Assembly (NCBI GenBank): GCA_021414025.1 | Contig: JAIOPG010000008.1 | Span: 62,001-126,000, forward strand | Direction of reading: 5' to 3' | From: Planctomycetota bacterium | GTDB lineage: Bacteria > Planctomycetota > Phycisphaerae > Phycisphaerales > SM1A02 | Length of the DNA stretch: 64,000 bases | Shown: in pieces, positions 5,242-21,658 of the stretch | Position numbering within the stretch: the first letter of the stretch is position 1 | Layout: each line of letters begins with the position of its first letter | Program-made: the position numbers and the translations under genes | Notes under the pieces: generated by a model | What the model saw: only the letters and a program-made list of their open reading frames with translations | What the model was told of the DNA's origin: nothing | Databases searched by the model: none

Positions 5242-6102
5242 TCAGAAGAGCCTGGACACGACGCGGAATAGCGCCGGCATCTGCGGCAAGATCACTGGCG
5301 CCATCAGCATCAGCAGTGGCACGAGCGACAAGAGCAAGACCCACTTGTTCCAGCGGCGATCCGCAAAGATGCGAGACCATGCAACGCGCGCCGTGAATGG
5401 CCACTCCTCGGTAAGGCCACACTCAGGACAGGTCATTGCGACCGGTTGCGTCAAGCTATATCTGCATCGCATGCATTTGCGACCGGCCTCCTTCCTCGAA
5501 CCACGAATCAGCCGGGTCAGGACATGGGTGGTGAAAAGAAAAGTGATCACCGGAATCGCGAGCCGATTGAGCCAATACGGAATCGAACTGAAATCCAGCA
5601 AGACATGAGAGCCAAAATATTCAAAATCCATCAAAATGCGATCCCCTTCCCCCGCTTGCATGATGCGGAAGAAAAACAACCAGACCAACCCCACGACGGG
5701 CAATGTGGCAATAAGGCAAAGCGAAGACATCCACCACGCTCGCAGCCTCAGGTCGCGACGACCCGTCGAATCAAAATCCCGCCAGTTCTCCGGCCAACCG
5801 AAACAGCGGATCCAATACGCTGCGAGGAACAAACACAGTGCCTGCATGACAAACGTTGCGCCCGCCCAGAGCACGATGTGCGCATAATGAAGCGCGTCAA
5901 CAAGGATCGGCTCCGGCCGCATGTTTACTTCCTCGTGCCTATAAGATTGGTCACGCGGCACCCAACCCTGCAGCATTTCAAAGAGTGACGCCGGCAATTG
6001 CCCGCCGATCCAAATGGCAAGATCGCAGGCGAGTTCCGCAGCGACGCAGGCGGCCATAACAATCAGGGCCACTCCGAACGTCTTGGCGAACGATCGCCTC
6101 AC
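5242..6102 (-). CDS. Multi-pass membrane protein with C-terminal zinc ribbon, paralogue 2
   Basis: A 286-residue membrane protein. It has a first hydrophobic helix at about residues 8-30, three further segments in the middle, the ribbon CMRCRYSLTQPVAMTCPECG at about 225-245 and a final hydrophobic segment LLLSLVPLLMLMAPVIL. It aligns along its length with the downstream neighbour at 4271-5179, so the two arose by tandem duplication. The start overlaps the stop of the upstream gene as ATGA, which fixes the start. The ribbon presumably faces the cytoplasm and could bind zinc or another protein. No enzymatic motif is present. Similar ribbons occur in four other proteins in this window. Confidence 0.8.
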   Translation of the reverse strand: MRRSFAKTFGVALIVMAACVAAELACDLAIWIGGQLPASLFEMLQGWVPRDQSYRHEEVNMRPEPILVDALHYAHIVLWAGATFVMQALCLFLAAYWIRCFGWPENWRDFDSTGRRDLRLRAWWMSSLCLIATLPVVGLVWLFFFRIMQAGEGDRILMDFEYFGSHVLLDFSSIPYWLNRLAIPVITFLFTTHVLTRLIRGSRKEAGRKCMRCRYSLTQPVAMTCPECGLTEEWPFTARVAWSRIFADRRWNKWVLLLSLVPLLMLMAPVILPQMPALFRVVSRLF

Positions 6103-6713
6103 GCCGAGCGGAATTCCTTCGGCACATCACCCTCGCGCATCGATCGCAGGAAAATCACCGCGGGCAGACCCGCGAGCATCCAGCACACGATGCTGTCGAT
6201 CATCAGCACCTGGGTCCATGACCCGGGCATGTAGAGAAAGTTCCACGAAACAAGGTGCGTTCCAATGGTCATGAAGGCGACCGCCGCGACCAGCACCATG
6301 AACCGTCGAAAAATCCCGTGGCCTGAGCCGCCCAGCCCGATCAACGCCGCGAGCGACGCAGTGGCGAACAGCTCAATGAGAAATCCGCGCACGAAAACGG
6401 TTGGATCGGCCGGATCCGCGCCTTCCTTGTGGTAGAGCACCATGAAGAAGGGACCCTTTTTATACGCGGCCATGGCCGCAGTCATCGCCGCGTCCTTTTC
6501 TGCCGCAGTCGCGTTCGCGGGCGCCGCCGGAAATCCCGGATACATGATCGCTCCGTCTTTCTTCGTGCTCGATTCGATCGCCGCCACGAATGGCTCCGGC
6601 GCCGTGATGGTCGTGATCGCCCCGCCCCAGATGTTGCCGCCCCACGCCGCCGCGCCCCAGCAAAATGCCAGGAAAGTTCCTGCCAGGCACACCAGCAAAT
6701 ATCGAATCACCAT
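6099..6713 (-). CDS. Predicted four-helix membrane protein, unknown function
   Basis: A 204-residue protein with an N-terminal hydrophobic helix (about residues 4-25), an extracytoplasmic loop of about 85 residues rich in Ala and Lys, then three hydrophobic segments (about 110-130, 138-160 and 170-190). The C-terminus is short and charged. No conserved motif was recognised. It overlaps the end of the mutase gene by 7 bases and its stop overlaps the start of the next gene by 4, so it sits inside a tightly coupled run. Membership of the run does not by itself link it to the mutase. Confidence 0.65.
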   Translation of the reverse strand: MVIRYLLVCLAGTFLAFCWGAAAWGGNIWGGAITTITAPEPFVAAIESSTKKDGAIMYPGFPAAPANATAAEKDAAMTAAMAAYKKGPFFMVLYHKEGADPADPTVFVRGFLIELFATASLAALIGLGGSGHGIFRRFMVLVAAVAFMTIGTHLVSWNFLYMPGSWTQVLMIDSIVCWMLAGLPAVIFLRSMREGDVPKEFRSA

Positions 6714-8401
6714 TCGGGTCCGCCCGCGTAGCGGCCATAGACATCGGCCATGGCCTGCACCATTTCGCCAAGCGTGCAGCGATCCAGCGAAGCCTCGACC
6801 AGCGCCGGCATCACATTTGCGCCCTTGCGAGCCGCCTCGCGAATTCCATCCAAGCCTTTCTTTGCCAGGCCCGCGTCGCGCTCCTTGCGGAACTTCGCCA
6901 GCCGATCGTTCTGCTCCGACTCCACCTCATGCGGAATCTGCAGAATTTCCATCTGCCGATCCTCGTTGCCATCGGTGTAGGCGTTCACGCCCACGATCAC
7001 GCGGTCGCCCGCCTCCATCTCCTGGCCGAAGCGGTAGCTGGCCTCGGCGATCTGCCGGCGGAAATATCCCTTGTGGATGCCGGAGACCACGCCGCCCATG
7101 TCGTCAATCTCCTTGATGTAGTCGTTGGCGTCGCTCTCCATGCGGTCGGTGAGCGCCTCCACGAACCAGCTTCCGCCCAGCGGATCCACCGTCCGGTGCA
7201 CGCCGGTTTCATGGGCAAGGATCTGCTGCGTGCGCAGCGCCACCCGCACCGCCGTTTCGGTCGGCAGGCCGAGCGTCTCATCCATGCTGTCGGTGTGCAG
7301 ACTCTGGCAGCCGCCCAGCACTCCGGCCAGCGCCTGATAGGCGACGCGCACGATGTTGTTCATCGGCTGCTGCTCGGTGAGCGAGCAACCCGCGGTCTGC
7401 ACGTGCGTGCGCATGAGCCAGCTTCGCTCCTGCTTGGCGCCGAAGCGGAAGCGCATGGCATTTGCCCAGATGCGCCGCGCCGCTCGCAGCTTGCAGATCT
7501 CCTCGAAGAATTCGTTGTGGCTGTTGAAGAAGAAACTCAGCCGCGATGCGAAGGAATCCACGTCCAGCCCGCGCTTCAGGCAGGCCTCGACGTACTCCAT
7601 GCCGTCGCGCAGCGTGAAGGCCAGCTCCTGCGTCGCCGTCGAACCCGACTCGCGGATGTGGTAGCCGCTGATCGAAACGGAATTCCATTTCGGCGTGTGC
7701 TGCGCCGCGAATTCGATCGTGTCCACCACCAGCTTCACGCTGGCCTCGGGCGGATAGATGAACTCATTCTGGCTGTGGAACTCCTTGAGCACGTCGTTCT
7801 GCAGCGTGCCGCCAAGCGTGTCCCAGGGAATGCCGCGTTGCTTGGCCATGGCCAGATACATCGCCCAGATTACGCAGGCCGGGCCGTTGATGGTCTGGCT
7901 CACGGTGACCTCGCCAACGGGAATGTCGGCGTAGAGACGGTGCATGTCATCGATGGTGCAGATGGCGACGCCGCAGCGCCCCACTTCGCCCGCGGCCAGC
8001 GGATCGTCGGAATCGCGTCCCATCAGGGTCGGCAAATCAAACGCCGTCGAGAGTCCGGTGTTGGCCTTGGTTCCCTTGGCGTTGTCCAGCAGATATTTGA
8101 ATCGCTTGTTGGTGTCGTCGGCGCTGCCGAAGCCCGCGAACTGCCGCATGGTCCAGAGGCGGTTGCGGTACATCGTCTCGTGTACGCCGCGCGTGAAAGG
8201 AAATTTCCCCGGCTCGGCGATGCGAGCGTGGGGCTTGGCGGGATCCTTCGGGTCGGTCGTGGGAACCTGCGGCCCGTAGCGCTGCTCGAGCTCGTAGCCC
8301 GAGAGCGTGACCGCTTCATGGTTCACTTTCCCGGCTTCGACCGCGCCTGGCGTCTTCGAGGTTTCAGCATGACTGGTGGTTTTGGATTTCAGTGAAGACA
8401 T
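6707..8401 (-). CDS. icmA: B12-dependent acyl-CoA mutase large subunit, isobutyryl-CoA mutase-like
   Basis: A 564-residue protein covering only the substrate-binding TIM-barrel part of the methylmalonyl-CoA mutase family. The B12-binding domain is absent, as in IcmA-type two-subunit enzymes. Family landmarks are RLWTMRQFAGFG (about 81-92), GLSTAFDLPTLMGRDSD, GTLQNDVLKEF, SISGYHIRESG and DPLGGSWFVE. The two residues that set substrate in this family can be read directly. The tyrosine of methylmalonyl-CoA mutase (Y89) is F88 here, and the arginine (R207) is Q211 in EFHSQNEFIYPP. Phe plus Gln is the isobutyryl-CoA mutase pair, predicting interconversion of isobutyryl-CoA and n-butyryl-CoA. The small B12-binding subunit is not in this window. 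The ATG at 8401 has an AAAGG-type ribosome binding site just upstream. Confidence 0.82.
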   Translation of the reverse strand: MSSLKSKTTSHAETSKTPGAVEAGKVNHEAVTLSGYELEQRYGPQVPTTDPKDPAKPHARIAEPGKFPFTRGVHETMYRNRLWTMRQFAGFGSADDTNKRFKYLLDNAKGTKANTGLSTAFDLPTLMGRDSDDPLAAGEVGRCGVAICTIDDMHRLYADIPVGEVTVSQTINGPACVIWAMYLAMAKQRGIPWDTLGGTLQNDVLKEFHSQNEFIYPPEASVKLVVDTIEFAAQHTPKWNSVSISGYHIRESGSTATQELAFTLRDGMEYVEACLKRGLDVDSFASRLSFFFNSHNEFFEEICKLRAARRIWANAMRFRFGAKQERSWLMRTHVQTAGCSLTEQQPMNNIVRVAYQALAGVLGGCQSLHTDSMDETLGLPTETAVRVALRTQQILAHETGVHRTVDPLGGSWFVEALTDRMESDANDYIKEIDDMGGVVSGIHKGYFRRQIAEASYRFGQEMEAGDRVIVGVNAYTDGNEDRQMEILQIPHEVESEQNDRLAKFRKERDAGLAKKGLDGIREAARKGANVMPALVEASLDRCTLGEMVQAMADVYGRYAGGPEW

Positions 8402-8497: not shown

Positions 8498-9505
8498 ATG
8501 CCTCCCAGCAAACCCAGCAACGCCGGCAAGAAGCTCGCCTGCTTCGCCCTGGTGTATCTGGTCTGGGGCAGCACCTATCTGGGCATGAAAATCGCCACCG
8601 GAAAGATCCCCCCGTTCTTCATCGGCGGGTCGCGATTCCTCGCCGCCGGCGCATGCCTGCTGCTCATCCTCACGGCGCTGGGAAAATTCCAGCCACGCTG
8701 GTTGACGAACCCGGCCTATTGGCGCGGCTCGGTCCTGGTGGGCATGCTGATGATGCTCGGCGCCAACGGACTTCTTTGCGCCAGCTTGGGACGGCCGGGA
8801 CTGCCCTCGGGATTGGCGGCGCTCATCGTCGCCAGCACTCCGATCTGGATGCTGCTGCTGGATCGCTGGCAGACGGGTTCGGGAAAGTTCACGCCGCAGA
8901 TCGTCGCGGGTCTCACCATCGGCTTGGTCGGCGTGGGCGTGCTGATGAGCGGGAAAATTTTCACTTCGGGCGAGAGCGCTCCCATCGATGTGACCGGCTG
9001 CCTGATGGTGCTGGTGAGCTGCATCCTCTGGAGCGCCGGCAGCATCGTGGGACGAAAAGTGCAGCAGCCGCCCCATCCCCTGGCCGCGAGTTCGATGCAG
9101 ATGATCTCCGGCGGCGTGATGATGCTGGCGCTCAGCGCCTGCATCGAGCAGTGGCGGCCCATCGCCGATGTCCCATGGGACGACCGCGCGTGGATCGCAT
9201 GGGCCTACCTGGCCATCTTCGGCTCGATGATCAGCTTCAGCGCCTTCGTCTGGCTGATGCACAATGTCAGCGCGGCCTCGGTGTCGACCTACGCCTACGT
9301 CAATCCGCTCATCGCCATGCTGCTGGGCTGGATCTTCCTTGGCGAGCAGCTGGGATTCCGCACGGGCGTCGCGGCGGTGCTGGTGCTTAGCGGCGTCGTA
9401 CTCATCCAGCTCTCGCGGCGCAAGACCAGCCGGGCCCGCCGCGCCACCACGCTGGTCGCCGACAGCATTCCCGCCCCTGCCGGGGAATCCCTCCTGCAAA
9501 AGTAG
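8498..9505 (+). CDS. EamA/DMT-superfamily transporter
   Basis: A 335-residue protein with ten predicted membrane helices in two repeats of five, the layout of the drug/metabolite transporter superfamily. The first helix carries YLVWGSTYLGMKIA, a hallmark of the YedA/RhaT-like branch. The second EamA repeat begins near CLMVLVSCILWSAGSIVG. The C-terminus ends in a basic tail (RRKTSRARRATT) on the cytoplasmic side. The substrate cannot be read from sequence; relatives export amino acids and metabolites. It is transcribed divergently from the mutase gene across a 96-base gap, which should hold promoters for both. The stop codon lies inside a perfect hairpin. Confidence 0.85.
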   Translation: MPPSKPSNAGKKLACFALVYLVWGSTYLGMKIATGKIPPFFIGGSRFLAAGACLLLILTALGKFQPRWLTNPAYWRGSVLVGMLMMLGANGLLCASLGRPGLPSGLAALIVASTPIWMLLLDRWQTGSGKFTPQIVAGLTIGLVGVGVLMSGKIFTSGESAPIDVTGCLMVLVSCILWSAGSIVGRKVQQPPHPLAASSMQMISGGVMMLALSACIEQWRPIADVPWDDRAWIAWAYLAIFGSMISFSAFVWLMHNVSAASVSTYAYVNPLIAMLLGWIFLGEQLGFRTGVAAVLVLSGVVLIQLSRRKTSRARRATTLVADSIPAPAGESLLQK

Positions 9506-9526
9506 CCCGGTCGCCTGCCGGGCTAC
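9502..9526 (+). other. Perfect 9-bp hairpin over the transporter stop codon
   Basis: GTAGCCCGG and CCGGGCTAC form a perfect 9-bp GC-rich stem with a 7-base loop. The left arm contains the TAG stop of the transporter gene, and the right arm ends 9 bases before the next start at 9536. No T-tract follows, so this is not a standard intrinsic terminator. It may stabilise the 3' end of the message or mask the ribosome binding site of the next gene. Confidence 0.6.
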
Positions 9527-9535
9527 GATGTCCCA

Positions 9536-10639
9536 ATGATGTCCGTTGTTCCATCGATTCGTTTCAAAGTGGGCGTGACGCTGCTGACCCTGCTGGCAGG
9601 CCTGCAACTGGCCGGCGACCCGCAGGACAAGAAGGCGCCGCCGAACTCGCTGCCCGCGGCCGACGGCAGCGCCAATCCCAAGTGGCTTGAAAAACTGGAC
9701 GCGCCGGAACGCACCTATCTCAACGAAGGGCTGGGCAAGCCCGCGACGGCGCCCCCCGCGTCGGTGGAGTGGTTCGGTGGAAAGGCGCCGGAGGCATTTG
9801 AGAACAGCGTCACCGTGATCCAGAGCATTCAGGACAAGGGCGGCGGCATGGGCCCGGCCGAGCGGATCCGCAAGGTGTTGCCGCCGGAGGCAAATTTCAT
9901 CGGCGTGGTCATTCCCGAGGACGCGGCGAAGTTGAAGAAAAAACTCGAGAAGAAGACTCCATTTCTCATCGCGTTGGACCCGGATGGATTGTGGACCACA
10001 CGCCTGGGGCTGCTGAAGATTCCCAGCAACATGATCGTGGACAAGAATGGCGTCATCCGCTTCGCGGGCCTTAATCCCAATGGCGTGAAGCTGGCCTGCG
10101 CCTTCCTGCTCGCGGAAAAAGTTGCCGTGGTCGAGCGCGGTGCCGATGCCACACCGAGCTATCCGAAGTTCACCGACCCAGTGGCCGGCGCCAGCGACCG
10201 GCGCGGACAGCGCATGATTCCCTTCGCGGTGCAGGAATGGATCACCAAGCAGCCCGTGATGGAGAACAAGCTGATGGTCATCGAGTTCTGGGCGACGGCC
10301 GACGAGCCGAGCCTGGCCGCAGTTCCCCGCATGAACGCCATCGCCAAGAAATACGCGGCGGACGCCATCTGCATCGGCATCACCGACGAGTACAAGAACA
10401 CCTTCGAAGCGGGACTCACAAAAAAGAAACTGACCCTCGCCTCGTTCGAGTATGCACTGGCGATCGACACCGCCCGCACGCTGAGCTCCTACTTCGACGT
10501 CAAGAGCATGCCCAACTGCGCCGTGGTCTCCAGCGATGGCATCGTGCGCTGGCAGGGCCCGCCGGCGCAGCTCGACGACGCGATCATGGCCAAGCTTGTC
10601 GACGCTCACAAAGCGTTGACCGCCCCCGCACAAAAGTGA
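9536..10639 (+). CDS. Secreted tandem thioredoxin-fold protein lacking the CxxC active site
   Basis: A 367-residue protein with an N-terminal signal-like helix (about residues 10-27) followed by two thioredoxin/TlpA-like domains. Domain 1 (about 75-210) keeps the features ...TPFLIALDPDGLWTTRLGL and IPSNMIVDKNGVIRFAG. Domain 2 (about 235-360) has KLMVIEFWATADEPS, SMPNCAVVSSDGIVRWQGPP and a final helix. In TlpA-type proteins FWATWCxPC precedes helix 1. Here the cysteines are replaced (ATADEPS), and no CxxC is present anywhere, so no thiol-disulfide chemistry is expected. A structural or binding role is inferred. ATG codons at 9536 and 9539 are adjacent and cannot be told apart. The gene follows the transporter by 30 bases. 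Confidence 0.7.
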   Translation: MMSVVPSIRFKVGVTLLTLLAGLQLAGDPQDKKAPPNSLPAADGSANPKWLEKLDAPERTYLNEGLGKPATAPPASVEWFGGKAPEAFENSVTVIQSIQDKGGGMGPAERIRKVLPPEANFIGVVIPEDAAKLKKKLEKKTPFLIALDPDGLWTTRLGLLKIPSNMIVDKNGVIRFAGLNPNGVKLACAFLLAEKVAVVERGADATPSYPKFTDPVAGASDRRGQRMIPFAVQEWITKQPVMENKLMVIEFWATADEPSLAAVPRMNAIAKKYAADAICIGITDEYKNTFEAGLTKKKLTLASFEYALAIDTARTLSSYFDVKSMPNCAVVSSDGIVRWQGPPAQLDDAIMAKLVDAHKALTAPAQK

Positions 10640-10806
10640 GCTGGACGATCAGGCGATACCGGAAACTTTGGGCGCAATTGTGCCTTTTTATCTTTTGATT
10701 TATGAAATTAATTGTTTGCCCCAAGCGGGTTTTCAGTCATACTGCGCGGGCATCCTTGGCGCTGTCTCAGTCCATCATGCCGAGCTCATCCTTCCGGAAC
10801 ATTCAA
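10640..10806 (+). promoter_or_regulatory. Leader region of the RCC1 gene cluster with a candidate sigma-70 promoter
   Basis: This 167-base gap contains a distinctly AT-rich patch (about 10684-10715) in otherwise GC-rich DNA. It is followed by TTGCCC (10715-10720) and CATACT (10738-10743) with a 17-base spacer, a plausible -35/-10 pair. Just before the start lies GGAACATTCAA, repeated exactly before the second cluster gene. No transcription data support the promoter, and the -35 match is imperfect. Confidence 0.35.
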
Positions 10807-13704
10807 ATGAATCAAACCTCTCGATCGCTCGTCCATTTCAAAAGCTATTTCCATCTCGCGGCGCTTGCCGCGGTCGCATGCATCACGCTCCCCGCCTCGG
10901 TCGCCCATGCTCGCGGCGAAGGTACGGTCGTGGGCTGGGGAAGCAACTTCAGCGGAGAAAGCAGTGCGCCGGCAAATCTTGGCGCCTGCAAAGCTGTTTC
11001 GGGAGGGATTTCCCACAGCGCGGCCATCAAGGAAGATGGAACCGTCGTGGCCTGGGGATACAACGGCTGGGGTGAATGCACGGTTCCTGGAACTCTGGGT
11101 TCCTGCAAGGCAATTGCGGCGGGCAATTTGTTCACGGTGGCTCTCAAGGACAACGGCCTTGTCGTTGCCTGGGGCGCGGGAACTACAAACACAGGGAGTC
11201 TTCCCAACTTTGGTCAGGCCATCGTGCCACCAACACTTGGAGCCTGCAAAGCCATTGCCACAAGCGGCTACCACACCCTGGCCTTGAAAGAAGATGGGAC
11301 GGTCGTGGCTTGGGGCACGGGAACGACCATTCAAGCGGCAGGCGGAGCGAGCAGTTTTGAGTGGGGTCAATCGATCGTTCCACCGACGCTCGGTCCATGC
11401 AAGGCCATCGCCGCGGGACCGAACCACTCGGTGGCCATCAAGACCACAGGAACGGTCGTGGCCTGGGGCAAGAACATCGATGGCCAGTGCAATGTGCCGG
11501 GCACGCTTGGCGCCTGTATCGCAGTTGCCGCAGGTGAATCTCACACTGTGGCGCTCAAGGCGGATGGAACGGTCGTGGCTTGGGGTTGGAATGGCTACGG
11601 TCAAACAGCTGTTCCCCCGACACTTGGCGCCTGCAAAGCAATTGCAGCGGGCGTCGGCCACACCGTGGCACTGAAAGAAAATGGAGTCGTGATCGTTTGG
11701 GGATTGAACTCCAACGGTCAATCAAGCATTCCCTACAACCTGGGTCATTGCAAGGCCATTGCCGCGGGGCAATACCACACCCTGGTTATTCAATCTCCCG
11801 CCACACCCTGTCTGGACAGCGCCGTTGGTTGGGGCTGGAACGGCTACGGCCAAACCACCGTGCCGGCCTCTTTGAGTTCTTGCAAAGCTTTGTCGGGCGG
11901 CTACGGCCACACGGTGGCGCTGCAGGAAGATGGAACGGTCAAGGCCTGGGGGTGGAATGATTTCGGCCAGGCCACCGTCCCCGCGAATCTTGGATTTTGC
12001 AAGGCGATTGCCGCCGGCGATTACCACACCGTTGCACTCAAGACAAATGGAACGGTTGTGGCCTGGGGTTACAACAATTACGGTGAAACAACGGTCCCTG
12101 GCGGACTTGGCGCCTGCAAAGCCATTGACGCCGGCGCCTACCACTCCGTGGCCGTCCAAGTGAGCGGATCCGTCGTGGCGTGGGGCAACAACGACTACGG
12201 CCAAACCAATGTGCCCGGCGACCTGGCGACATGCCAGTCCGTGTCCGCGGGCTACGGCCACACCGTCGCTCTGCAGGATGATGGCACGGTCCGAGCCTGG
12301 GGCTACGACTTCAACGGCCAGGCCACAGTGTCCCCCACGCTCGGCTCATGCAAAGCAATTGCTGCGGGAGGTTTCCACACTGTGGTCTTGCGAGATGACG
12401 GCACCGTCGCGGCATGGGGAAACGACTTCTACGGACAATCCACCGTGCCGGCGACTCTTGGCCCATGCAAGGCGATTGCCGCCGGCGATTTTCACACCGT
12501 GGCTCTTCAAGAGGATGGAACGGTCGTGGCCTGGGGCGACAACGACGATGGCGAAGCCACTTTGCCGACAAATCTTGGTCCCTGCACCACAATTGGCGCG
12601 GGCAGCTACCACACCTTGGCCATTCAAAAATCGCCTTCGCTTGGAGTGTTGAATTGTTGGGGTGACAACTCCTACTCCCAATTGAATATTCCTGTCGGCC
12701 TTGGTTCTTGCCTGGCCATTTCGGGTGGAAGCGGGTTTACCGTTGCGATACAGGAAGATGGGGCAGTTGCCGCCTGGGGTATTAACAACTTAGGTCAAAC
12801 CAATGTGCCTGCAAATCTTGGCGGCTGCAATAAAGCCGTTTCAGCGGGTGGTTGGCACACGGTGGTCATTACGGAAGATGGAACGGTGAAGGCTTGGGGC
12901 GCAGGAACGACCAACGGCGTCTTTCCCAATCTCGGGCAATCAATCGTGCCGCCAACTCTTGGTCCCTGCAAAGCGATCGACACCATCTACATGCACACCG
13001 TGGCGCTGCGGGAAGATGGAACAGTCGTGGCCTGGGGCGCTGGAACAACAATTCAGGCCGGCGGTGGAGCCTATGGACTTGAGTACGGTCAATCCATCGT
13101 TCCTCCGACACTTGGTCCATGCAAGGCCATTGCGGCGGGCATATACCACACCCTGGCTCTCAAAGAAGATGGAACAGTCGTGGCGTGGGGTGACAACAGC
13201 TACGGCCAACTCAATGTGCCTTTTGCAACGCTTGGCCCATGCAAGGCCATTGCGGCGGGCGGATTCCACTCCGTGGCACTGCGGGAAGATGGAACCGTCG
13301 TCACCTGGGGCTCCAACAGCTACGGTCAAGTCGAAGTGCCCGCGACGCTTGGCGCATGCAAGGCGATTTCAGCGAATCAAGCGAACACGCTGGCATTGAA
13401 GGAGAATGGAAAAGTTGTGGGATGGGGTCACAACTTCAACGGCCAAACCGACATTCCCGCCGGCCTTGGAGTTTGCTTCGCCATTGATGCGGGCGGCTTT
13501 CACACTCTGGCGCTCGTTGACCCGTTTGGAGTCTTTTGCACCTCCGACCTGGACGATTCCGGCGAGGTTGATTCCGGCGACATCGGCTTGATGCTGCTTG
13601 ATTTCGGCCCCTGCCCCGGCTGTCCCACCGATCTGGATGGTTCCGGCGAAGTGGACGGCGGCGACATCGGTTTGGCATTGCTTGATTTCGGTCCGTGCCC
13701 TTGA
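10807..13704 (+). CDS. Secreted RCC1-repeat protein A: 21 blades (3 x 7) plus dockerin-like tail
   Basis: A 965-residue protein. Residues 1-37 form a signal peptide (hydrophobic LAALAAVACITLPASVAHA). Then come 21 RCC1-like repeats of about 39 residues with the core GTVVAWGxNxxGQ...VPxxLGxCKAIAAGxxHTVALKED. Linkers lacking the Gly-Thr-Val junction fall after repeat 7 (SPATPCLD) and repeat 14 (SPSLG), splitting the chain into three groups of seven. That predicts three seven-bladed propellers at about 38-336, 337-614 and 616-902. Repeats 3-4 and 17-18 carry long loops (GTTN..., GTTIQ...) at the same blade positions of propellers 1 and 3. Residues about 905-965 hold two calcium-loop-like motifs (DLDDSGEVDSGD and DLDGSGEVDGGD). 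I chose the start at 10807 because it gives a clean signal peptide and matches the leader of gene B. Confidence 0.85.
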   Translation: MNQTSRSLVHFKSYFHLAALAAVACITLPASVAHARGEGTVVGWGSNFSGESSAPANLGACKAVSGGISHSAAIKEDGTVVAWGYNGWGECTVPGTLGSCKAIAAGNLFTVALKDNGLVVAWGAGTTNTGSLPNFGQAIVPPTLGACKAIATSGYHTLALKEDGTVVAWGTGTTIQAAGGASSFEWGQSIVPPTLGPCKAIAAGPNHSVAIKTTGTVVAWGKNIDGQCNVPGTLGACIAVAAGESHTVALKADGTVVAWGWNGYGQTAVPPTLGACKAIAAGVGHTVALKENGVVIVWGLNSNGQSSIPYNLGHCKAIAAGQYHTLVIQSPATPCLDSAVGWGWNGYGQTTVPASLSSCKALSGGYGHTVALQEDGTVKAWGWNDFGQATVPANLGFCKAIAAGDYHTVALKTNGTVVAWGYNNYGETTVPGGLGACKAIDAGAYHSVAVQVSGSVVAWGNNDYGQTNVPGDLATCQSVSAGYGHTVALQDDGTVRAWGYDFNGQATVSPTLGSCKAIAAGGFHTVVLRDDGTVAAWGNDFYGQSTVPATLGPCKAIAAGDFHTVALQEDGTVVAWGDNDDGEATLPTNLGPCTTIGAGSYHTLAIQKSPSLGVLNCWGDNSYSQLNIPVGLGSCLAISGGSGFTVAIQEDGAVAAWGINNLGQTNVPANLGGCNKAVSAGGWHTVVITEDGTVKAWGAGTTNGVFPNLGQSIVPPTLGPCKAIDTIYMHTVALREDGTVVAWGAGTTIQAGGGAYGLEYGQSIVPPTLGPCKAIAAGIYHTLALKEDGTVVAWGDNSYGQLNVPFATLGPCKAIAAGGFHSVALREDGTVVTWGSNSYGQVEVPATLGACKAISANQANTLALKENGKVVGWGHNFNGQTDIPAGLGVCFAIDAGGFHTLALVDPFGVFCTSDLDDSGEVDSGDIGLMLLDFGPCPGCPTDLDGSGEVDGGDIGLALLDFGPCP

Positions 13705-13714
13705 TGGATTCTTT

Positions 13715-13739
13715 CACGCCGCATTCGAAGTGCGGAACA
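13715..13739 (+). repeat. Intergenic 25-base element, copy 1 (A-B junction)
   Basis: A 25-base block between RCC1 genes A and B that recurs at 17743-17767 between genes C and D with 23 of 25 positions identical. It centres on the palindrome TTCGAA. In this copy CCGCA and TGCGG can pair around it, but in the second copy that stem has an uncompensated mismatch. Confidence 0.6.
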
Positions 13740-13758
13740 TTATTTTCGGAACATTCAA

Positions 13759-15678
13759 ATGAAAAAAATATTTCAACTTGCTGCGTTGGCCATTGTCGCT
13801 TTGACCACCCGCGCATCGGTGGCGCTCGCCTGCGACACCGGCACATTCGTTGGCTGGGGCTGGGGCGGCTACGGCCAGCTCAACACCCCCGTCAATCTTG
13901 GCGACTGCAAAGCGATTTCGGGGGGCTACGCGCACACGATGGCTCTTCGTGCCGATGGAACGGTCGCGTGCTGGGGCTGGAACGACTTCGGTCAATCCAC
14001 TTTGCCTTTCGGTCTGGGCACTTGCAAGAAAATCGCGGCGGGCTCCTACCACAGCGTGGCCATTGATGACAGTGGAGCCGTCTGGGCCTGGGGCTACAAC
14101 TTCTACGGTGCCGTCAATGTGCCCCCGACTCTTGGCGCATGCAAGGCGATTGCAGCAGGCGACTACACAACCGTGGCGATCCAAAACGATGGAACCGTCG
14201 TGGCCTGGGGATTCAACGAGTCGGGACAATGCGATGTGCCGGCGAATCTTGGCGCCTGCAAGGCAGTCGCGGCGGGCTTCCGTCACACCGTTGCGCTGAA
14301 GGAAAATGGAACGGTCGTGGTCTGGGGAGACAATTTCTACGGTCAATGCAATGTGCCTGCGACTCTTGCTCCTTGCAAAGCCATTTCGGCGGGCGTCTAC
14401 AACATCGTGGCGCTGCAGGAAGATGGAACTATTGTCGCATGGGGGAACAATTCCTGGGGTCAGAACGATGTGCCGGCCGACCTTGGTCCATGCAAGGCAA
14501 TTGAGTGCGGCGATTTTCACACCGCGGCGCTGCGCGAAGATGGAACCGCCGAGGCGTGGGGCTACAACCAAGATGGCGAATGTGTCACTCCTTCCAACCT
14601 AGGCGCCTGCGGCGCCATTGCCGCCGGCGCCTACCACACCGTGGCGCTCCATTTGCCCGCGACTGGAATGGTGAAGGCCTGGGGCGCGAATGTGAACAAC
14701 CAAAATGGCCAGGCGAATGTGCCGGCAGACCTTGGCCCCTGCAAGGGCATCGCTGCGGGATATACCCACACCCTTGCTCTCAGAGAGGATGGAACGGTCA
14801 CGGGCTGGGGAAACAATTTGACCGGACAGATCAATGTGCCCGCCAATCTCGGCGCCTGCAACAGGGCGATTGCGGCAGGCTCGTTGCATTCCGTTGCGCT
14901 GCAAGCGGATGGAACGGTCGTGGCCTGGGGATACAACGGGTTCGGCCAATGCAATGTGCCTGCGGGACTCGGTTCCTGCAAAGCCATTGCAGCGAATGAC
15001 AATCACACCTTGGCGCTCAAGGACAATGGGATGGTCGTGGCATGGGGCTCGAATTTTTCCGGCGAAAGCGATGTGCCTACATCCCTTGGCGCCTGCAAAG
15101 CCATCACTGCGGGCTGGGAACACAACCTGGTCATCAAGGTCGATGGAACGGTCGTGGCCTGGGGTTACAACAGTTTCGGCCAATGCGATGTGCCGGCGGG
15201 ACTTGGTTCCTGCAAAGCGATTGCCGCCGGCGATTACCACTCTGTGGCGATCAAGGCAGATGGAACCGTCGTGGCATGGGGCAGCAACGCCCTGGGCCAA
15301 TGCAATGTGCCCGCAGATCTTGGAGCTTGCAAAGCGGTGGCGGCAGGTTCCGACCACTGTGTGGCGTTGCGGGAGGACGGAACGGTCGTGGCCTGGGGCA
15401 ACAACCTGGATGGGCAATGCGACGTGCCTGCGGATCTTGGCGTCTGCCACGCGATTTCCGCGGCGACATACCACACCGTCGCGCTTCAATTGCAGAGTGC
15501 AACGCTCTGTCCATCCGACATGGATGGTTCCGGCGAAGTGGACGGCGGAGACATCGGGCTGATCCTTCTTGACTTCGGGCCATGCCCCGGTTGCCCCACC
15601 GACCTCGATGGCTCGGGCGAAGTCGATGGCGGCGACATTGGTCTGGTGCTGCTCGATTTCGGTCCGTGCCCGGAATGA
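13759..15678 (+). CDS. Secreted RCC1-repeat protein B: 14 blades (2 x 7) plus dockerin-like tail
   Basis: A 639-residue protein. It begins MKKIFQLAALAIVALTTRASVALA, a short signal peptide. Fourteen repeats of about 39 residues follow, in two groups of seven split after HLPATG (about residue 302). The tail (about 580-639) has CPSDMDGSGEVDGGDIG followed by PCPGCPTDLDGSGEVDGGD, two dockerin-like calcium loops of the same subtype as protein A. Half or more of the blades carry a second cysteine, GQCNVP or GQCDVP, nine residues before the constant one. The gene starts 54 bases after gene A, in the same orientation, so they are probably co-transcribed. GGAACATTCAA directly before the ATG is shared with gene A. 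The role is unknown; an extracellular structural or ligand-binding role is inferred. Confidence 0.85.
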   Translation: MKKIFQLAALAIVALTTRASVALACDTGTFVGWGWGGYGQLNTPVNLGDCKAISGGYAHTMALRADGTVACWGWNDFGQSTLPFGLGTCKKIAAGSYHSVAIDDSGAVWAWGYNFYGAVNVPPTLGACKAIAAGDYTTVAIQNDGTVVAWGFNESGQCDVPANLGACKAVAAGFRHTVALKENGTVVVWGDNFYGQCNVPATLAPCKAISAGVYNIVALQEDGTIVAWGNNSWGQNDVPADLGPCKAIECGDFHTAALREDGTAEAWGYNQDGECVTPSNLGACGAIAAGAYHTVALHLPATGMVKAWGANVNNQNGQANVPADLGPCKGIAAGYTHTLALREDGTVTGWGNNLTGQINVPANLGACNRAIAAGSLHSVALQADGTVVAWGYNGFGQCNVPAGLGSCKAIAANDNHTLALKDNGMVVAWGSNFSGESDVPTSLGACKAITAGWEHNLVIKVDGTVVAWGYNSFGQCDVPAGLGSCKAIAAGDYHSVAIKADGTVVAWGSNALGQCNVPADLGACKAVAAGSDHCVALREDGTVVAWGNNLDGQCDVPADLGVCHAISAATYHTVALQLQSATLCPSDMDGSGEVDGGDIGLILLDFGPCPGCPTDLDGSGEVDGGDIGLVLLDFGPCPE

Positions 15679-15730
15679 TGTAGGTTACGAAGCATTTGAT
15701 TTGCACAACACACCTTCCCGGAGAGTTCCT

Positions 15731-17713
15731 ATGAATCACGCGTCGCCTTCGCCGCTCCAGTTGAATGGCTTCCTCCGATGTGCGGCCGTGGCCTTCATGG
15801 CCTTGACCACGATGGCTTCCGTGGCGAACGCCAGCACCGGAGTTGGAACCGTCTTTGCATGGGGCAGCAATGCTTCCAGCCAAAACACTATCCCCGCGAC
15901 CTTTGGATATTGCAAAGCCGTGGGTTCGGGTTTCCAGCACAACATGGCTCTCACCCAATACGGAACCGTGCTGGTCTGGGGCGACAACTCCCAGGGGCAG
16001 ACCAATGTGCCGGGCACGCTCGGAACATGCAAGGCCATCGCGGCAGGCACCTACTTCAGCCTTGCTCTCAAGGACAATGGAACGGTCGCGGCCTGGGGTT
16101 CCAACAACTTTGGACAAAGCACGGTGCCGGGAACTCTGGGCACCTGCCAGGCCATCGCGGCGGGCGGCTTTCACGCGCTGGCCATCAAAGTCGATGGAAC
16201 CGTCGTGGCCTGGGGCGACAACTCATACAACCAACGCACTGTGCCGGGAACGCTTGGCGCGTGCAAGGCAGTCGGCGGCGGCTCCTACCACTCTCTGGCC
16301 ATCAAGGTCGATGGAACCCTCGTGGCTTGGGGCCGCAACACCTACGGTCAGTGCAATGTGCCGGTCGCGCTTGGAGCTTGCACGCAGGCGGCCGGCGGAT
16401 TTGGCCACACCGTGGCGCTGAAAGCCGACGGCACCGTGGTGGCCTGGGGCTTGAACAACAAGGGCCAGAGCACCGTGCCTGCGACTCTGAGCGCCTGCAT
16501 CGCCGTTGCGGCGGGCGAGTCCCACAGCGTTGCACTCCAAGTCGATGGCACGGTCGTGGCCTGGGGATTGAACACGGATGGCCAATGCACGGCACCTTCC
16601 GAGCTCGGCGACTGTGTCGCGATTGGTGCCGGCTCCGCAAACACGATGGCCGTCCAATTGCCTTTCGCAGGAGTTGTGGATGCGTGGGGCTCAAACGTAT
16701 CGGGTATTTCCACGCCGCCCGCAGGTCTCGGTTTTTGCACGGCCCTCGATGGGGGCGACAAGCACACCATTGCGTTGCAAGTCGATGGAACGGTTGTGGC
16801 CTGGGGAGCGGGTGCGACGAATACTGGAGTCTCGCCGCATTATGGACAATCCATCGTGCCTCCAAGCCTGGGACCCTGCATTGCAATTGCTGCCGGGTTT
16901 TTCCATTCGTTGGCCATCGATGAAAATGGAATCGTTTTTGCCTGGGGTCTAAACAGTGAAGGACAATGCAACGTCCCCGCCAACCTTGGCATATGCAGGT
17001 CCATTTCTGGGGGAAGCGGTCACTCTTTGGCCCTGAAGGAAAATGGAACCGTCGTTGCCTGGGGAAGAAACACGCTCGGACAATGCAATGTTCCCGCCAC
17101 GCTTGGCGCCTGCAGGGCGATTTCGGCGGGGCATGATTATTCAGTGGCGCTGACGGCGAATGGAACGATCGTCGCCTGGGGCTACAACGGCTTGAGTCAA
17201 TGCGGGACCGCGAGCGAAAAAACCGGAACCGGAACCACTGCCTACTGGACGAAGTCAAGCATTGGAGCATGCAAGGCCATCTCAGCGAGCTCCGATCACA
17301 CTGTTGCTCTAAAGGCGGATGGGACCGTTGTGGCATGGGGCAGCAACGCAAGTGGACAATGCAACGTCCCGGCCAATCTTGGTGCATGCATCGCAGTCGC
17401 AACGACGAATACCTCCACTTTGGCCCTCAAACTTGATGGAACGATCGTCGCATGGGGGGGCAACTCCGGTGGAGAATGCAATGTGCCGGCGAGTCTTGGT
17501 CCATGCAAGGCCCTGGCCACCGGTGATTTCCACGCCCTGGTACTCAAAGTTGCGCTGGTCGGCGATCTGAGCGGCGACGATGTGGTCGACAGTGCCGATG
17601 TCGGCTTGATGCTTTTGGACTACGGCCCCTGCCTGGGATGCGCGTCGGATCTGAACGGCGACGGCGTCGTCGACGGCGCCGACATGGGATTGCTGCTGCT
17701 GAGTTTTTCTTGA
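15731..17713 (+). CDS. Secreted RCC1-repeat protein C: 14 blades (2 x 7) plus dockerin-like tail
   Basis: A 660-residue protein. The N-terminus MNHASPSPLQLNGFLRCAAV leads into a signal peptide ending near VANAS. Fourteen repeats follow in two groups of seven, split after QLPFAG (about residue 313). Blade 9 has a long GATNTG... loop like those of protein A. Blade 12 carries an insert beginning GTASEKTGTGTTAYW, which is also found in protein D. The tail (about 607-660) is of a different subtype from A and B: GDLSGDDVVDSADVG, then SDLNGDGVVDGADMG. I preferred the ATG at 15731 because the frame upstream is the end of gene B, and because its first residues match protein D. The gap to gene B is 52 bases. 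Confidence 0.85.
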   Translation: MNHASPSPLQLNGFLRCAAVAFMALTTMASVANASTGVGTVFAWGSNASSQNTIPATFGYCKAVGSGFQHNMALTQYGTVLVWGDNSQGQTNVPGTLGTCKAIAAGTYFSLALKDNGTVAAWGSNNFGQSTVPGTLGTCQAIAAGGFHALAIKVDGTVVAWGDNSYNQRTVPGTLGACKAVGGGSYHSLAIKVDGTLVAWGRNTYGQCNVPVALGACTQAAGGFGHTVALKADGTVVAWGLNNKGQSTVPATLSACIAVAAGESHSVALQVDGTVVAWGLNTDGQCTAPSELGDCVAIGAGSANTMAVQLPFAGVVDAWGSNVSGISTPPAGLGFCTALDGGDKHTIALQVDGTVVAWGAGATNTGVSPHYGQSIVPPSLGPCIAIAAGFFHSLAIDENGIVFAWGLNSEGQCNVPANLGICRSISGGSGHSLALKENGTVVAWGRNTLGQCNVPATLGACRAISAGHDYSVALTANGTIVAWGYNGLSQCGTASEKTGTGTTAYWTKSSIGACKAISASSDHTVALKADGTVVAWGSNASGQCNVPANLGACIAVATTNTSTLALKLDGTIVAWGGNSGGECNVPASLGPCKALATGDFHALVLKVALVGDLSGDDVVDSADVGLMLLDYGPCLGCASDLNGDGVVDGADMGLLLLSFS

Positions 17714-17742
17714 ATTGCGATTCGCATTTGAATTGGTTCCTG

Positions 17743-17767
17743 CACGCCCCATTCGAACTGCGGAACA
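17743..17767 (+). repeat. Intergenic 25-base element, copy 2 (C-D junction)
   Basis: The second copy of the element at 13715-13739, with two substitutions. It lies 20 bases before the start of gene D. The B-C junction does not contain it. Confidence 0.6.
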
Positions 17768-17787
17768 CTCTTTGTCGGGAGACAAAT

Positions 17788-19785
17788 ATGAATCACGCTT
17801 CGCCATCGTTCCTCAATTCGAAAAACTTCATCAAGCATGTGGCGCTGGCGGCTGTGTTCTTCTTCGCGTACTCGTCCGCGGCTCTGGCGGCCGTCACGAC
17901 ACAGGTCGTCTCCTGGGGCAACAACGACTACAGCCAGAACAATGTGCCGACGAATCTGGGTTCCTGCAAAGCCATTGCCTCGGGGTACACCCACCACGTG
18001 GCGATCCAGGACAGTGGAACGGTCGTCGCCTGGGGATGGAACGACTATGGCCAGGCCACCGTGCCGGGAACACTTGGCGCTTGCAAGGCCGTGGCAGCCA
18101 GCGCCTACCACTCCGTGGCGTTGAAAGAAAGTGGCACGGTCGCGGCTTGGGGCGACAACTCCTACGGTCAATGCACGGTGCCGGGAACGCTCGGAGTCTG
18201 CCAGGCGATTGCCGCAGGCGGCTTTCACACCCTGGCGCTCAAAGTGGATGGAACGGTCGTGGCGTGGGGAGCGAACACGGTGGGTCAATCGACCGTGCCC
18301 GCAGCGCTCGGCGCTTGCAAGGCGATTGCCGCTGGACAATTTCATTCCGTCGCACTCAAGGTCGACGGAACGGTCGTGGCCTGGGGCTGGAATCCATTTG
18401 GTCAATCCACGGTTCCTCCGGCACTTGGCGCCTGCACGGCCATTGAAGCGGGATACGCACACTCGATCGCGTTGAAAGCCGATGGAACGGTGGCGGCCTG
18501 GGGCTCAAACAGCGATGGTCAGTGCAATGTCCCGGCATCGCTTGGCGCCTGCAAGGCCATCGCCGCGGGCGATTTCCACAGCGTTGCCCTGCAAGTCGAT
18601 GGAACCGTCGTGATGTGGGGCCAAAATACGGATGGCCAGTGCAATCTTCCCTCCGATGTCGGCGCCTGCACCGCGATCGCAGCCGGCGGCCTCAACACGG
18701 TCGTGCTTCAATTGCCCTTCACAGGAATCGTGAGCGCGTGGGGCCTCAACAACTTGGGACAAACCACGGTGCCCAGCGACCTTGGTTTTTGCGTGGCCCT
18801 TGCCGGAGGTGGCTACAACACCCTGGTCATTCAGGAAGATGGAACAGTCCTGGCATGGGGCAGAAACACGTTTGGCGAAAGCGCGGTGCCGGTGAATCTT
18901 GGCGCTTGCAAGGCGGTCGCCGGCGGTGGTTTTCACAGTCTGGCGCTGCGCCAGGATGGAAGCGTCGCGTCATGGGGCCAGAACTCCTTCGGTCAATCGA
19001 CCGTGCCGGTGACTCTTGGCGCCTGCAATGCGATCGAAGCGGGTTCTCAATTCTCCGCGGCTCTCAAGGCGAATGGAATTGTCGCAACCTGGGGTCTTAA
19101 CAGTTCCGGACAATGCAATGTGCCGGCGCCGCTTGGCCCTTGCAAAGCAATCGCGGCGGGCACCACCCACATGGTGGCCCTTCGACAGGATGGAACCGTC
19201 ATGGCCTGGGGCGACAACGCCGAAGGCCAATGTGGAACTGCAAGCGAGAAAGTTGGAACTGGATTGACCGCGTACTGGCCGAAGTACAGCCTGGGACCTT
19301 GCAAAGACATTGCCGCAGGTCAATACCACTCGGTCGCTCTCAAGGTCGATGGAACAGTCGTGGCGTGGGGGTACAACGGCAGCGGTCAATGCAATGTGCC
19401 CGCGACGCTCGGCGCCTGCAAGGCCATTGCCGTGGGCTTCAGTCACACCGTGGCACTTCGACAGGATGGAACAATCGTGGCCTGGGGGGACAACGGCAAC
19501 AGCCAATGTGGAACACTCGACGAAAAAATTGGGGCAGGCCCGACCGCATACTGGGTCAAGAGCAATTTTGGCGCTTGCAAAGCGATTGCCGCGGGAGGCC
19601 TTCACACTATGGCGCTCAAAGTGCCAATCGTTGGCGATTTGAGCGGCGACAATGTCGTCGACAGCGGCGATGTCGGCCTGATGCTGCTGGACTACGGCCC
19701 CTGTCCGGGCTGCGCCTCCGACCTCGACGGCGACGGCTACGTCGACGGTGCCGACATGGGATTGCTGCTCTTGAGTTTCTCGTGA
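17788..19785 (+). CDS. Secreted RCC1-repeat protein D: 14 blades (2 x 7) plus dockerin-like tail
   Basis: A 665-residue protein. MNHASPSFLNSKNFIKHVAL precedes a hydrophobic signal segment ending near AALAA. Fourteen repeats follow in two groups of seven, split after QLPFTG (about residue 312). Blades 12 and 14 both carry the GTxxEK...TAYW insert shared with protein C. The tail (about 613-665) has GDLSGDNVVDSGDVG and SDLDGDGYVDGADMG. C and D are the closest pair in the cluster by signal peptide, insert and tail. The gene ends one base before the convergent uup-like stop, so any terminator must lie inside that coding sequence. A function cannot be assigned from sequence. Confidence 0.85.
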   Translation: MNHASPSFLNSKNFIKHVALAAVFFFAYSSAALAAVTTQVVSWGNNDYSQNNVPTNLGSCKAIASGYTHHVAIQDSGTVVAWGWNDYGQATVPGTLGACKAVAASAYHSVALKESGTVAAWGDNSYGQCTVPGTLGVCQAIAAGGFHTLALKVDGTVVAWGANTVGQSTVPAALGACKAIAAGQFHSVALKVDGTVVAWGWNPFGQSTVPPALGACTAIEAGYAHSIALKADGTVAAWGSNSDGQCNVPASLGACKAIAAGDFHSVALQVDGTVVMWGQNTDGQCNLPSDVGACTAIAAGGLNTVVLQLPFTGIVSAWGLNNLGQTTVPSDLGFCVALAGGGYNTLVIQEDGTVLAWGRNTFGESAVPVNLGACKAVAGGGFHSLALRQDGSVASWGQNSFGQSTVPVTLGACNAIEAGSQFSAALKANGIVATWGLNSSGQCNVPAPLGPCKAIAAGTTHMVALRQDGTVMAWGDNAEGQCGTASEKVGTGLTAYWPKYSLGPCKDIAAGQYHSVALKVDGTVVAWGYNGSGQCNVPATLGACKAIAVGFSHTVALRQDGTIVAWGDNGNSQCGTLDEKIGAGPTAYWVKSNFGACKAIAAGGLHTMALKVPIVGDLSGDNVVDSGDVGLMLLDYGPCPGCASDLDGDGYVDGADMGLLLLSFS

Positions 19786-19786
19786 G

Positions 19787-21658
19787 TCACGCGCCGCGCT
19801 TGCTCTCAAGCTCCTGCCAGCGCGCATAGAGCGTGGCGATGGTGTCCTGCACGGCGTCGAGCGCCTTGCAGGCGGCGGCCATTTTCTTGTGGTCGGCGGC
19901 GACGGCGGGATCGGCCACTTTCGCCTCGGCGACCAGGCGCTCCTTTTCAGCGGTTTCAACAGCGGCTTCCATTCCATCCAGCTCGCGCTGCTCCTTGAAG
20001 CTCAGCCGCGTCCGCTTTGTGAGAGTGCCGCTTGCCCGTGCGGCGCGATTGCCCTCGGCCCGCGCGGCGCGGTCGCGCACCGTGGTGGCGTTCTCGGCGC
20101 GCTCCAGCGCGGCGAGCGCCTGATCCAGGCTGGCGACCACCGACACGCTCGCGTCGGGCGCGCCGATCACCACGATGCTCTTGGCCAGGCGCCCGAGCAT
20201 GGTGCGATCGTGCGTCACCAGCAGCACGGCACCGGGGAAGGACTCGATCGAATCCTCGAGCACCTCGAGCGTGGGAATGTCCAGGTCGTTGGTCGGCTCG
20301 TCCAGCACCAGGATGTCCGCCGGCTCCAGCATCATGCGGGCGATGTGGGCGCGGGCCCGCTCGCCGCCGGAAAGATTGCCCACGGTCTGCAGCAGCTGCG
20401 CGTCCTTGAAGAGGAAGCGGCGCGACCAGGCGGTAATGTGCATCGAGCGCCCCTGGAAGTCGACCGTTTCGCCCAGCGGGCAGATGGCGTCCTTGAGCAG
20501 TGTGTTCTCGGGAATGTCGGTGCGCTGCTGGCGCAGCACCACCACGCGCGGCATCGGATCGGCGAAGCGGATGGTGCCCGCGTCGGGCTTGAGGTCGCCG
20601 CAGATGATGCGAAGAAGTGTGGTCTTGCCGCTGCCGTTGGGGCCCATCAGGCCGATGCGGTCGCCCGGCGCGATCTCCAGATCGAGCTCGCGGAAGAGCG
20701 TGCGCCCGTCGAAACCCTTGGAAATGCCGGTGGCCTGCACCAGCCGCTTGGTGCGCCGGCCGCTGGCGGTGAAGTCCACGCGGGCTCCGCCGGCCCCCGC
20801 CGCCTCGTTTCGGGCCGCGATCGCGCTGAGCTCGTCGCGCCGGTCGGCGCTCTCGTCGATGCGGCTCTTGGCCTTGGTGCCGCGGCCCTGCGGTCCGCGC
20901 GACAGCCAGTAGTCATCCAGGCGCACCTCGTTGGCCAGCGTCGCCTCGGCCTGTTCCTGCGCCGCCAGAAATTCCGCGCGACGCCGCAGGAACTCGCTGT
21001 AGTTGCCCTCGGTCATCAGCGTCCCCTGCGGATAGGCGCGGCTGAGCTCGAGCACACGCGTGGCCACCCGCTCAAGGAAGGCGCGGTCATGGGTGACGAA
21101 GACGCAGGCCCCGGCGCGGATGTCGTTGGTGCCTTTGGCGAGGAACTGCTCAAGCCAGCGGATGCCCTCCACATCAAGATGGTTGGTCGGCTCGTCCAGC
21201 AGCAGCAGGTCGGGCGTGCCCCCCGCTTCGCAGAGACCGCACGCGATGGACAGCCTCTTCTTCCAGCCGCCGGAAAGAAGCTCGACGGGTTCGTCCATGC
21301 GCGAGTCGGGAAAGCCGAGCTTGCCCAGGATCACGCTGCCCAGCACCTCCGCTTCGTGCTTGTCGCCGTGCACGCTGGCGGATTTCAGCGCGGCGGCCGT
21401 GGCCGCCGAGCGCGGGGTCAAGCCCGCGGGAAAATCGTCGCGCTGACCAACGAACACGACCACCGTGCCGCGCTGCAGGCGCACCACGCCGTGATCGGGC
21501 TCCTCGAGGCCCGCGAGCATGCGCATCAGCGTGGACTTGCCGGCGCCGTTGGGGCCGATGAAGCCCACGCGGTCGCCATCGGCGACGCTGAACGACACTC
21601 CGTGGAAGAGTTCACGCAGGCCGTGCGACTTGGAAAGATCTTTGGCGACGAGGAGCAT
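19787..21658 (-). CDS. uup: ABC-F family ATPase, Uup-like
   Basis: A 623-residue soluble protein with two ABC ATPase domains and no membrane segment. Domain 1 has Walker A GPNGAGKST, signature LSGGWKKRL and Walker B LLLLDEPTNHLD. Domain 2 has Walker A GPNGSGKTT, signature LSGGERARAHIA and ILVLDEPTNDLD. The LSGGWKKRL form of the first signature is typical of Uup. A charged coiled-coil tail (about 540-620) fits the Uup C-terminal DNA-binding region. ABC-F proteins act on the ribosome E site or, for Uup, also on branched DNA intermediates. The gene is convergent with the RCC1 cluster, and its promoter should lie in the 79 bases shared with the divergent gene at 21738. Confidence 0.88.
   Translation of the reverse strand: MLLVAKDLSKSHGLRELFHGVSFSVADGDRVGFIGPNGAGKSTLMRMLAGLEEPDHGVVRLQRGTVVVFVGQRDDFPAGLTPRSAATAAALKSASVHGDKHEAEVLGSVILGKLGFPDSRMDEPVELLSGGWKKRLSIACGLCEAGGTPDLLLLDEPTNHLDVEGIRWLEQFLAKGTNDIRAGACVFVTHDRAFLERVATRVLELSRAYPQGTLMTEGNYSEFLRRRAEFLAAQEQAEATLANEVRLDDYWLSRGPQGRGTKAKSRIDESADRRDELSAIAARNEAAGAGGARVDFTASGRRTKRLVQATGISKGFDGRTLFRELDLEIAPGDRIGLMGPNGSGKTTLLRIICGDLKPDAGTIRFADPMPRVVVLRQQRTDIPENTLLKDAICPLGETVDFQGRSMHITAWSRRFLFKDAQLLQTVGNLSGGERARAHIARMMLEPADILVLDEPTNDLDIPTLEVLEDSIESFPGAVLLVTHDRTMLGRLAKSIVVIGAPDASVSVVASLDQALAALERAENATTVRDRAARAEGNRAARASGTLTKRTRLSFKEQRELDGMEAAVETAEKERLVAEAKVADPAVAADHKKMAAACKALDAVQDTIATLYARWQELESKRGA

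Follow-up and report, generated by a model that had tools for sequence, protein, structure and literature searches.

Four tandem genes (A–D) at positions 10807–19785 of the window encode chains of two or three seven-blade RCC1-type propellers each, and with a probability of about 0.6 we regard their products as exported RCC1/BLIP-II-type scaffolds for recognition or adhesion, which would bind a ligand through a variable face and would be sorted or attached through a dockerin-like tail that occurs genome-wide. The window is the whole stretch of DNA analyzed, 64,000 nucleotides that correspond to positions 62001–126000 of contig C8 in a 2.80-Mb assembly of 8 contigs with a completeness of 97.48. 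This reading builds on a match in fold and phase to BLIP-II, the coincidence of variable positions with BLIP-II contact positions, the aromatic residues found there, a contrast in pN between these positions and the remainder of the blade, a gene fusion at locus L019, and published precedents.

Blade Counts and Domain Composition of the Cluster

The four RCC1 genes are the only long ORFs within the cluster, and their positions match those given in an earlier note on this DNA (table 1). Arrival of the cluster on a mobile element was considered and set aside. To count blades, we used W-G anchors and two passes of a unit HMM, the first built from 43 exact 39-residue units of A–D and the second from first-pass matches in many loci. 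All counts gave 21, 14, 14, and 14 blades of ~39 residues for A, B, C, and D, respectively (63 in total), confirming the numbers that the earlier note had claimed; extra WG pairs, two in A and two in B, all lie inside blades. PF13540 (RCC1_2) and PF25390 (RCC1-like domain) match all four proteins far over cut-off (E 9e-95 to 1.8e-159), and a scan against NCBIfam gave no matches over a cut-off. The claim of complete seven-blade sets is supported by these unit counts and, for B, by an AlphaFold model. Signal-like N-termini, judged by eye, also support the description of the chains as probably secreted.

Table 1. Positions of the RCC1 cluster and flanking genes in the window
Feature	Positions	Strand	Parts and remarks
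Left flank, thioredoxin/AhpC-TSA-like gene	9536–10639	+	PF00578 and PF08534 over cut-off
Gene A	10807–13704	+	ATG 10807 used, in-frame upstream ATG at 10702; signal-like N-terminus; propellers ~10924–11793, ~11824–12630, ~12652–13515; double DxDxSG tail ~13531–13701
Gene B	13759–15678	+	Propellers ~13843–14649, ~14668–15489; tail ~15496–15675; 14 units and AlphaFold model
Gene C	15731–17713	+	ATG 15731; propellers ~15848–16657, ~16676–17551; tail; 14 units, one split unit merged
Gene D	17788–19785	+	ATG 17788; propellers ~17905–18711, ~18727–19623; tail; 14 units, two units split by inserts merged
Right flank, ABC-F type ATPase gene (our presumption)	19787–21658	-	Convergent; one base between its stop and the stop of D

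Fold and Relationship to BLIP-II

The AlphaFold model of B contains 14 three-stranded blades that align to solved seven-blade propellers (mean pLDDT 77.1, 253 of 639 residues at 90 or above, pTM 0.52), whereas that of A was discarded for its low mean pLDDT of 46.9; structure prediction, which the earlier note had proposed, therefore bears out the blades of B, and the three propellers of A are derived from its sequence alone. Closed toroids are seen for B in the model, and the assignment of A–D to the RCC1/BLIP-II group, which is treated as one propeller group in a published paper (PMC9218822), is based on sequence. The best solved sequence relative is BLIP-II of Streptomyces exfoliatus (1jtd, 3qhy, and 3qi0; E 1.9e-41), which also ranks first in a Foldseek search with the model of B (E 1.5e-27, target TM 0.87) and aligns to it in VIA-align with a Z of 40.3 and an rmsd of 1.3 over 267 residues. 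BLIP-II likewise has three-stranded blades of ~39 residues with the same start and end phase, the chain starting with the third strand, as is characteristic of this subtype. It differs from A–D in having one propeller, no tail, and a known target, beta-lactamase. The ectodomain of the plant receptor kinase CRINKLY4 (7a0j and 7a0k; Z 26.9 against the model of B) comprises, according to the part of its description used here (PMC4617170), seven extracellular RCC1-related repeats, also of ~39 residues and with three strands per blade, and is unlike A–D in its single propeller and its own Cys pattern. The short blades, which the earlier note had contrasted with the longer ones of eukaryotic RCC1, are shared with at least these two proteins, and regarding them as odd is not supported.

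BLIP-II chains align to the model of B over 263–267 residues. The BLIP-II alignment spans residues 25–578 of the model yet covers only 267 of them, as would be expected if it consisted of the N-terminal strand and the second half of B; UVR8 aligns to residues 45–313, without the N-terminal strand. In the model, the first strand of B may thus close the second propeller, in a region of low pLDDT and at the pTM given above.

Boundaries between Propellers

To compare boundaries, we counted the residues from the conserved His position of a blade to the next Trp. This distance is 13 in 54 of 54 junctions measured inside the propellers of A–D, and 15, 15, 15, 16, and 18 at their five boundaries. The breaks after blades 7 and 14 that the earlier note reported are real in A–D but they are not general. 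Inside other propellers of this genome the distance is 13 in 142 of 143 junctions, and the boundaries of the other double propellers also have 13 residues with a normal turn (11 of 11 measured), a twelfth, in L010_7672, looking unbroken on reading. Boundaries in related genomes have 13 residues in seven of seven cases (one, L037, from the same order). Arrays from other phyla are mixed, with long spacers separating the seven-blade sets in some and no spacers in others. Among the propellers of this genome, the break after blade 7 is confined to the A–D cluster.

A two-residue turn can hardly reach from one ring to another, so in unmarked arrays the next strand should complete the first ring's blade 7, and the last blade of the second ring would then be left to the free N-terminal strand. 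This suggests that in unmarked double propellers the first strand of the chain closes the last propeller, a reading that agrees with the model of B and with WRAP, a protein of 14 blades discussed below. A single ring of 14 blades is a possible alternative for an unmarked array of this length.

The Variable Face

Among 241 units from this genome, the six highest entropies are found at blade positions 29, 7, 9, 30, 10, and 14. With stricter filtering, positions 29, 7, 9, 30, and 10 are the top five, in varying order, in each of four sets (173 units from the genome's own radiation, 45 other units from this genome, 408 from related genomes, and 280 from other loci in other phyla). The BLIP-II interface includes 22 residues named in part of a published study (PMC10817188), of which 21 were mapped by eye to positions 7, 8, 9, 10, 14, 29, and 30; all 21 agree in type with the printed BLIP-II sequence, and BLIP-II blade 1 has one extra residue in the mapped region. 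Five of the seven most variable positions fall within this interface (hypergeometric p 7e-4 per set, the sets not being independent), and the top five are all BLIP-II contact positions. Because the same five positions lead in all four sets, variability of the face that makes contact in BLIP-II is a general property of short-blade propellers and does not single this genome out as diversifying.

In the genome's own radiation, Y, F, W, and H account for 47% of residues at positions 10 and 30 and 19% at positions 7, 9, and 29, compared with 2% at positions 13, 17, 18, 21, and 37, which were taken as lying away from the variable face. Residues at contact positions differ from blade to blade. Each propeller would present on one face a ring of fourteen variable loops (positions 7–10 and 29–30) rich in aromatics, which may bind a ligand in the way that BLIP-II uses these loops to bind beta-lactamase, and two or three propellers per chain would provide multivalency or several specificities.

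Across eight selected paralogue pairs, interface positions have a pN of 0.43 and the other positions one of 0.20, at similar pS (0.62 and 0.60, respectively); in two of the pairs the difference in pN is small. The pN/pS ratio at interface positions is 0.69, and a value below 1 together with near-saturated synonymous sites leaves room for relaxed constraint; positive selection was considered as well and dropped in view of this saturation (pS ~0.6). The propellers could accordingly be structural spacers, building blocks of a stalk or surface layer that have no specific ligand and whose loops vary under low constraint, and the variation of the same positions in all groups, the many copies, and the strict sevens would agree with such a role. 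We consider spacers unlikely because the aromatic content at positions 10 and 30 (His counted) is unusual for an idle exposed surface and because the variable positions match BLIP-II contacts. The latter match also raises the idea that the proteins are inhibitors or decoys that bind and block certain enzymes secreted by competitors or hosts, as a picomolar enzyme inhibitor that uses the same contact positions is their closest relative of known structure. Yet BLIP-II has a single propeller and no such tail, and the blade-to-blade differences at contact positions likewise speak against this function, which seems quite improbable to us. For the recognition or adhesion scaffold that we favor there is an additional precedent in PilX2, whose RCC1 propeller is a candidate adhesin.

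Cys occupies blade position 22 in 97% of units in the genome's own radiation, compared with 0% in its other propellers (45 units), 21% in related genomes, and 7% elsewhere, and is thus peculiar to this radiation. A redox link between this residue and the thioredoxin-like product of the left-flank gene (9536–10639) was considered and dropped, as that protein has WATADEPS in place of CxxC, which we take to be the usual motif of thioredoxin-like proteins, and may be redox-inactive.

The C-Terminal Tail

Two DxDxSGxxDxxD-like repeats are visible in the tails that the earlier note called dockerin-like, but none of them reaches the cut-off of the Pfam Dockerin_1 model (22.9 bits): the tails of A, B, and D score 12.1, 14.6, and 18.9 bits, respectively, and that of C has no match. 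A tail HMM matches A with an E of 6.8e-52, the tail of A being itself in the training set. LPxTG wall anchors are absent from A–D, whose C-termini, by eye, end in the DxDxSG tail. By eye also, 20 of the 25 RCC1 ORFs in this genome have the double tail; the exceptions are the three ORFs of L018 with one half, L017 with a different variant, and L013_6076 without a tail.

Matches to the tail of B alone occur at ~50 further places in the genome (counted by hand, weak matches included). Nine stretches around such places contain 24 tail-bearing ORFs, and ten of these were scanned, yielding one subtilase, one protein with CotH and lamin-tail domains, two with matches under cut-off, and six with none. 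The presence of the tail on varied non-propeller ORFs marks it as a general C-terminal tag and not as a hallmark of RCC1 propellers; it may serve in sorting or attachment. At L019 (2504–5404; ~86503–89403 of contig C5 in this genome, G000), one ORF combines a reprolysin-type metallopeptidase, one seven-blade propeller, and the dockerin-like tail, and additionally has a TSP_3 match of 23.2 bits, under the cut-off of 25.

This combination, and the subtilase and the CotH and lamin-tail-domain protein among tail-bearing products, would also be expected if the propellers served an extracellular peptidase complex as modules for docking or substrate binding. The planctosome proposed for freshwater planctomycetes (PMC6461901) is such a complex: according to part of its description, reprolysin-like peptidases are held in it by cohesin–dockerin contacts, and this genome shares with it dockerin-like modules and peptidases of that type. 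However, the planctosome needs cohesin, and Pfam cohesin (PF00963) has no match in this genome at its completeness of 97.48, where a divergent cohesin could be missed; in a sample of the family, 8 of 61 genomes have one at E ≤0.001, and 6 of these are over cut-off. The sub-cut-off Dockerin_1 scores of the tails point in the same direction, and we judge docking to a peptidase complex improbable. The terms "RCC1" and "propeller" do not occur in the main text of the planctosome description (PMC6461901).

The Genome-Wide Set of Propellers and the Rule of Sevens

A search with B gave 124 matches in this genome, and PF13540 gave at least 150 (scored among 336 candidates). Of the 61 genomes sampled, this one has the most PF13540 repeats, at least 109, followed by 68 in the next; the figures are lower bounds for this genome and four others. 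The DNA probably comes from a planctomycete, judging by the tail type and by Phycisphaerae among the related loci; the best named match, at 42% identity, is labeled Akkermansia. In the 11 stretches of this genome that hold RCC1 matches, we counted 25 RCC1 ORFs including A–D with 42 propellers: one ORF has 21 blades, fifteen have 14, and nine have 7. Multiples of seven were obtained for 23 of the 25 by raw count and for all 25 after matches of 5.5 bits or less were dropped, and sevens in this genome are not due to chance.

The earlier note had proposed a profile search to see whether multiples of seven are kept in Planctomycetota genomes, and in related genomes several ORFs depart from the rule. 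The counts leave out duplicates with identical sequence and any ORF that runs off a contig. Related genomes supplied 32 complete ORFs, of which L031 and L037 belong to the same order and the other 30 to the same genus or family. Exact sevens were found in 24 by raw count, in 25 without the weak matches, and in 29 by either; the failures are L031 (11 near-identical blades), L038 (11), and L177 (13 or 12). A stricter coverage measure passes 21 of the 32. L173, which gives a multiple of seven only without weak matches, has a degenerate look on reading, and the first ORF of L176, open-ended and left out of the count, has 12 WG units. In a wider collection of 63 ORFs from 80 related loci, 36 pass by either count and 21 by coverage; short-blade ORFs among them pass in 13 of 15 cases by either count, and in several long-blade failures the first and last blade are each split in two. 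Sevens are thus not a universal rule across relatives and other loci.

Three ORFs illustrate further arrangements. L013_6076 (6076–7200, minus strand) stops within its eighth blade after seven complete ones and lacks a tail; it looks like a truncated double-propeller gene, and the gene that follows it has its own signal-like N-terminus (L013 4614–7200; G000 contig C6 ~225613–228199). L168 (3147–12725, genome G083) encodes a single chain of 3192 residues with five seven-blade sets in a row with spacers, and L074, an ORF open at both ends, has five separate seven-blade sets with spacers on one chain.

Phylogeny of the Propellers and the Cluster Junction in Relatives

We constructed a quick tree of the 42 propellers of this genome and 47 from related genomes (two from the same order), the relatives being picked by best match. 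The tree has 86 inner branches (16 starred, 38 open), and long branches are flagged in it. Thirty-five of the 42 propellers form one group without any of the 47 from relatives (SH-aLRT 82, not starred), and this group appears lineage-specific with modest support. The second propeller of A pairs with the first of B (94), the first of C with the first of D (SH-aLRT 95, starred), and the first of A with the third of A (82). Pairing across genes suggests that entire propellers were duplicated and passed from one neighboring gene to another, and the set may have grown in the lineage by such duplication and exchange.

The earlier note had asked whether the order of the cluster is kept. Of eight relatives, six have close left-flank orthologues; G001 and G007, with distant copies, were left out, as were partial left-flank copies in G015 and G008. 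In five of the six (G002, G005, G006, G010, and G012), the ABC-F orthologue (79–89% identity; three cut by a contig end) follows the left-flank orthologue after ~12 to 135 bases with no RCC1 gene between them. The cluster is therefore not conserved, the junction being closed in five of the six relatives examined. In the sixth, G014 (L161 ~9014–10917), the junction holds a gene resembling an O-antigen ligase by eye, together with an RCC1-type ORF that runs off the contig after its first part. Gene content at this site may vary between genomes, and the cluster would occupy a junction that is closed in most of the relatives examined.

A broader picture, which we advance tentatively and hold to be rather doubtful as a whole, is that this genome encodes a diversified repertoire for recognition, with 42 propellers or more distributed over 25 chains that are probably exported. 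Most of it would have arisen inside the lineage as whole propellers were duplicated and exchanged, and 20 of the 25 chains carry the double tail. In most double propellers the two rings would be interlocked by strand exchange, a pattern from which A–D depart by a longer boundary hairpin.

Comparison with Known Arrays

The published systems considered here are compared from parts of the cited papers. Honeybee bifidobacteria have 7–24 RCC1 genes per genome, mostly in tandem clusters (PMC4449606), whose products carry a wall anchor and comprise two to four domains of about seven repeats each (PMC4449606, PMC3447821). These arrays resemble A–D in their tandem genes and in having two or more seven-repeat domains per protein; they are described as strain-specific and are said to diversify (PMC4449606, PMC3447821). 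Compared by description, they differ in having LPxTG and Flg_new repeats and not the DxDxSG tail. Another precedent is the WRAP protein of Nostoc punctiforme, which we take to belong to the WD40 lineage. It resembles the double propellers of this genome in having 14 blades on one chain that form two seven-blade propellers, and is unlike A–D in its near-identical blades and in forming the C-terminal part of a STAND ATPase protein (PMC9218822). Fifteen genes of an RCC1 COG are also recorded for Haliangium (PMC3035250). In openly licensed literature, judged by title, RCC1 and dockerin occur together in synthetic cellulosome work only, and RCC1 with Planctomycetes yields nothing on propeller arrays, "RCC1" once being part of a strain name.

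The bifidobacterial clusters and WRAP do not allow the array to be regarded as an undescribed system, as the earlier note had suggested: the kind is already known, and what differs is the tail, the lineage, and the boundary pattern. The multi-propeller RCC1 surface array of bee bifidobacteria would thus also exist in a distant lineage, with another C-terminal tag. The 39-residue blade with five variable positions is a natural template for designed binders, and the unmarked 14-blade arrays make it testable how an uninterrupted array splits into two rings of seven.
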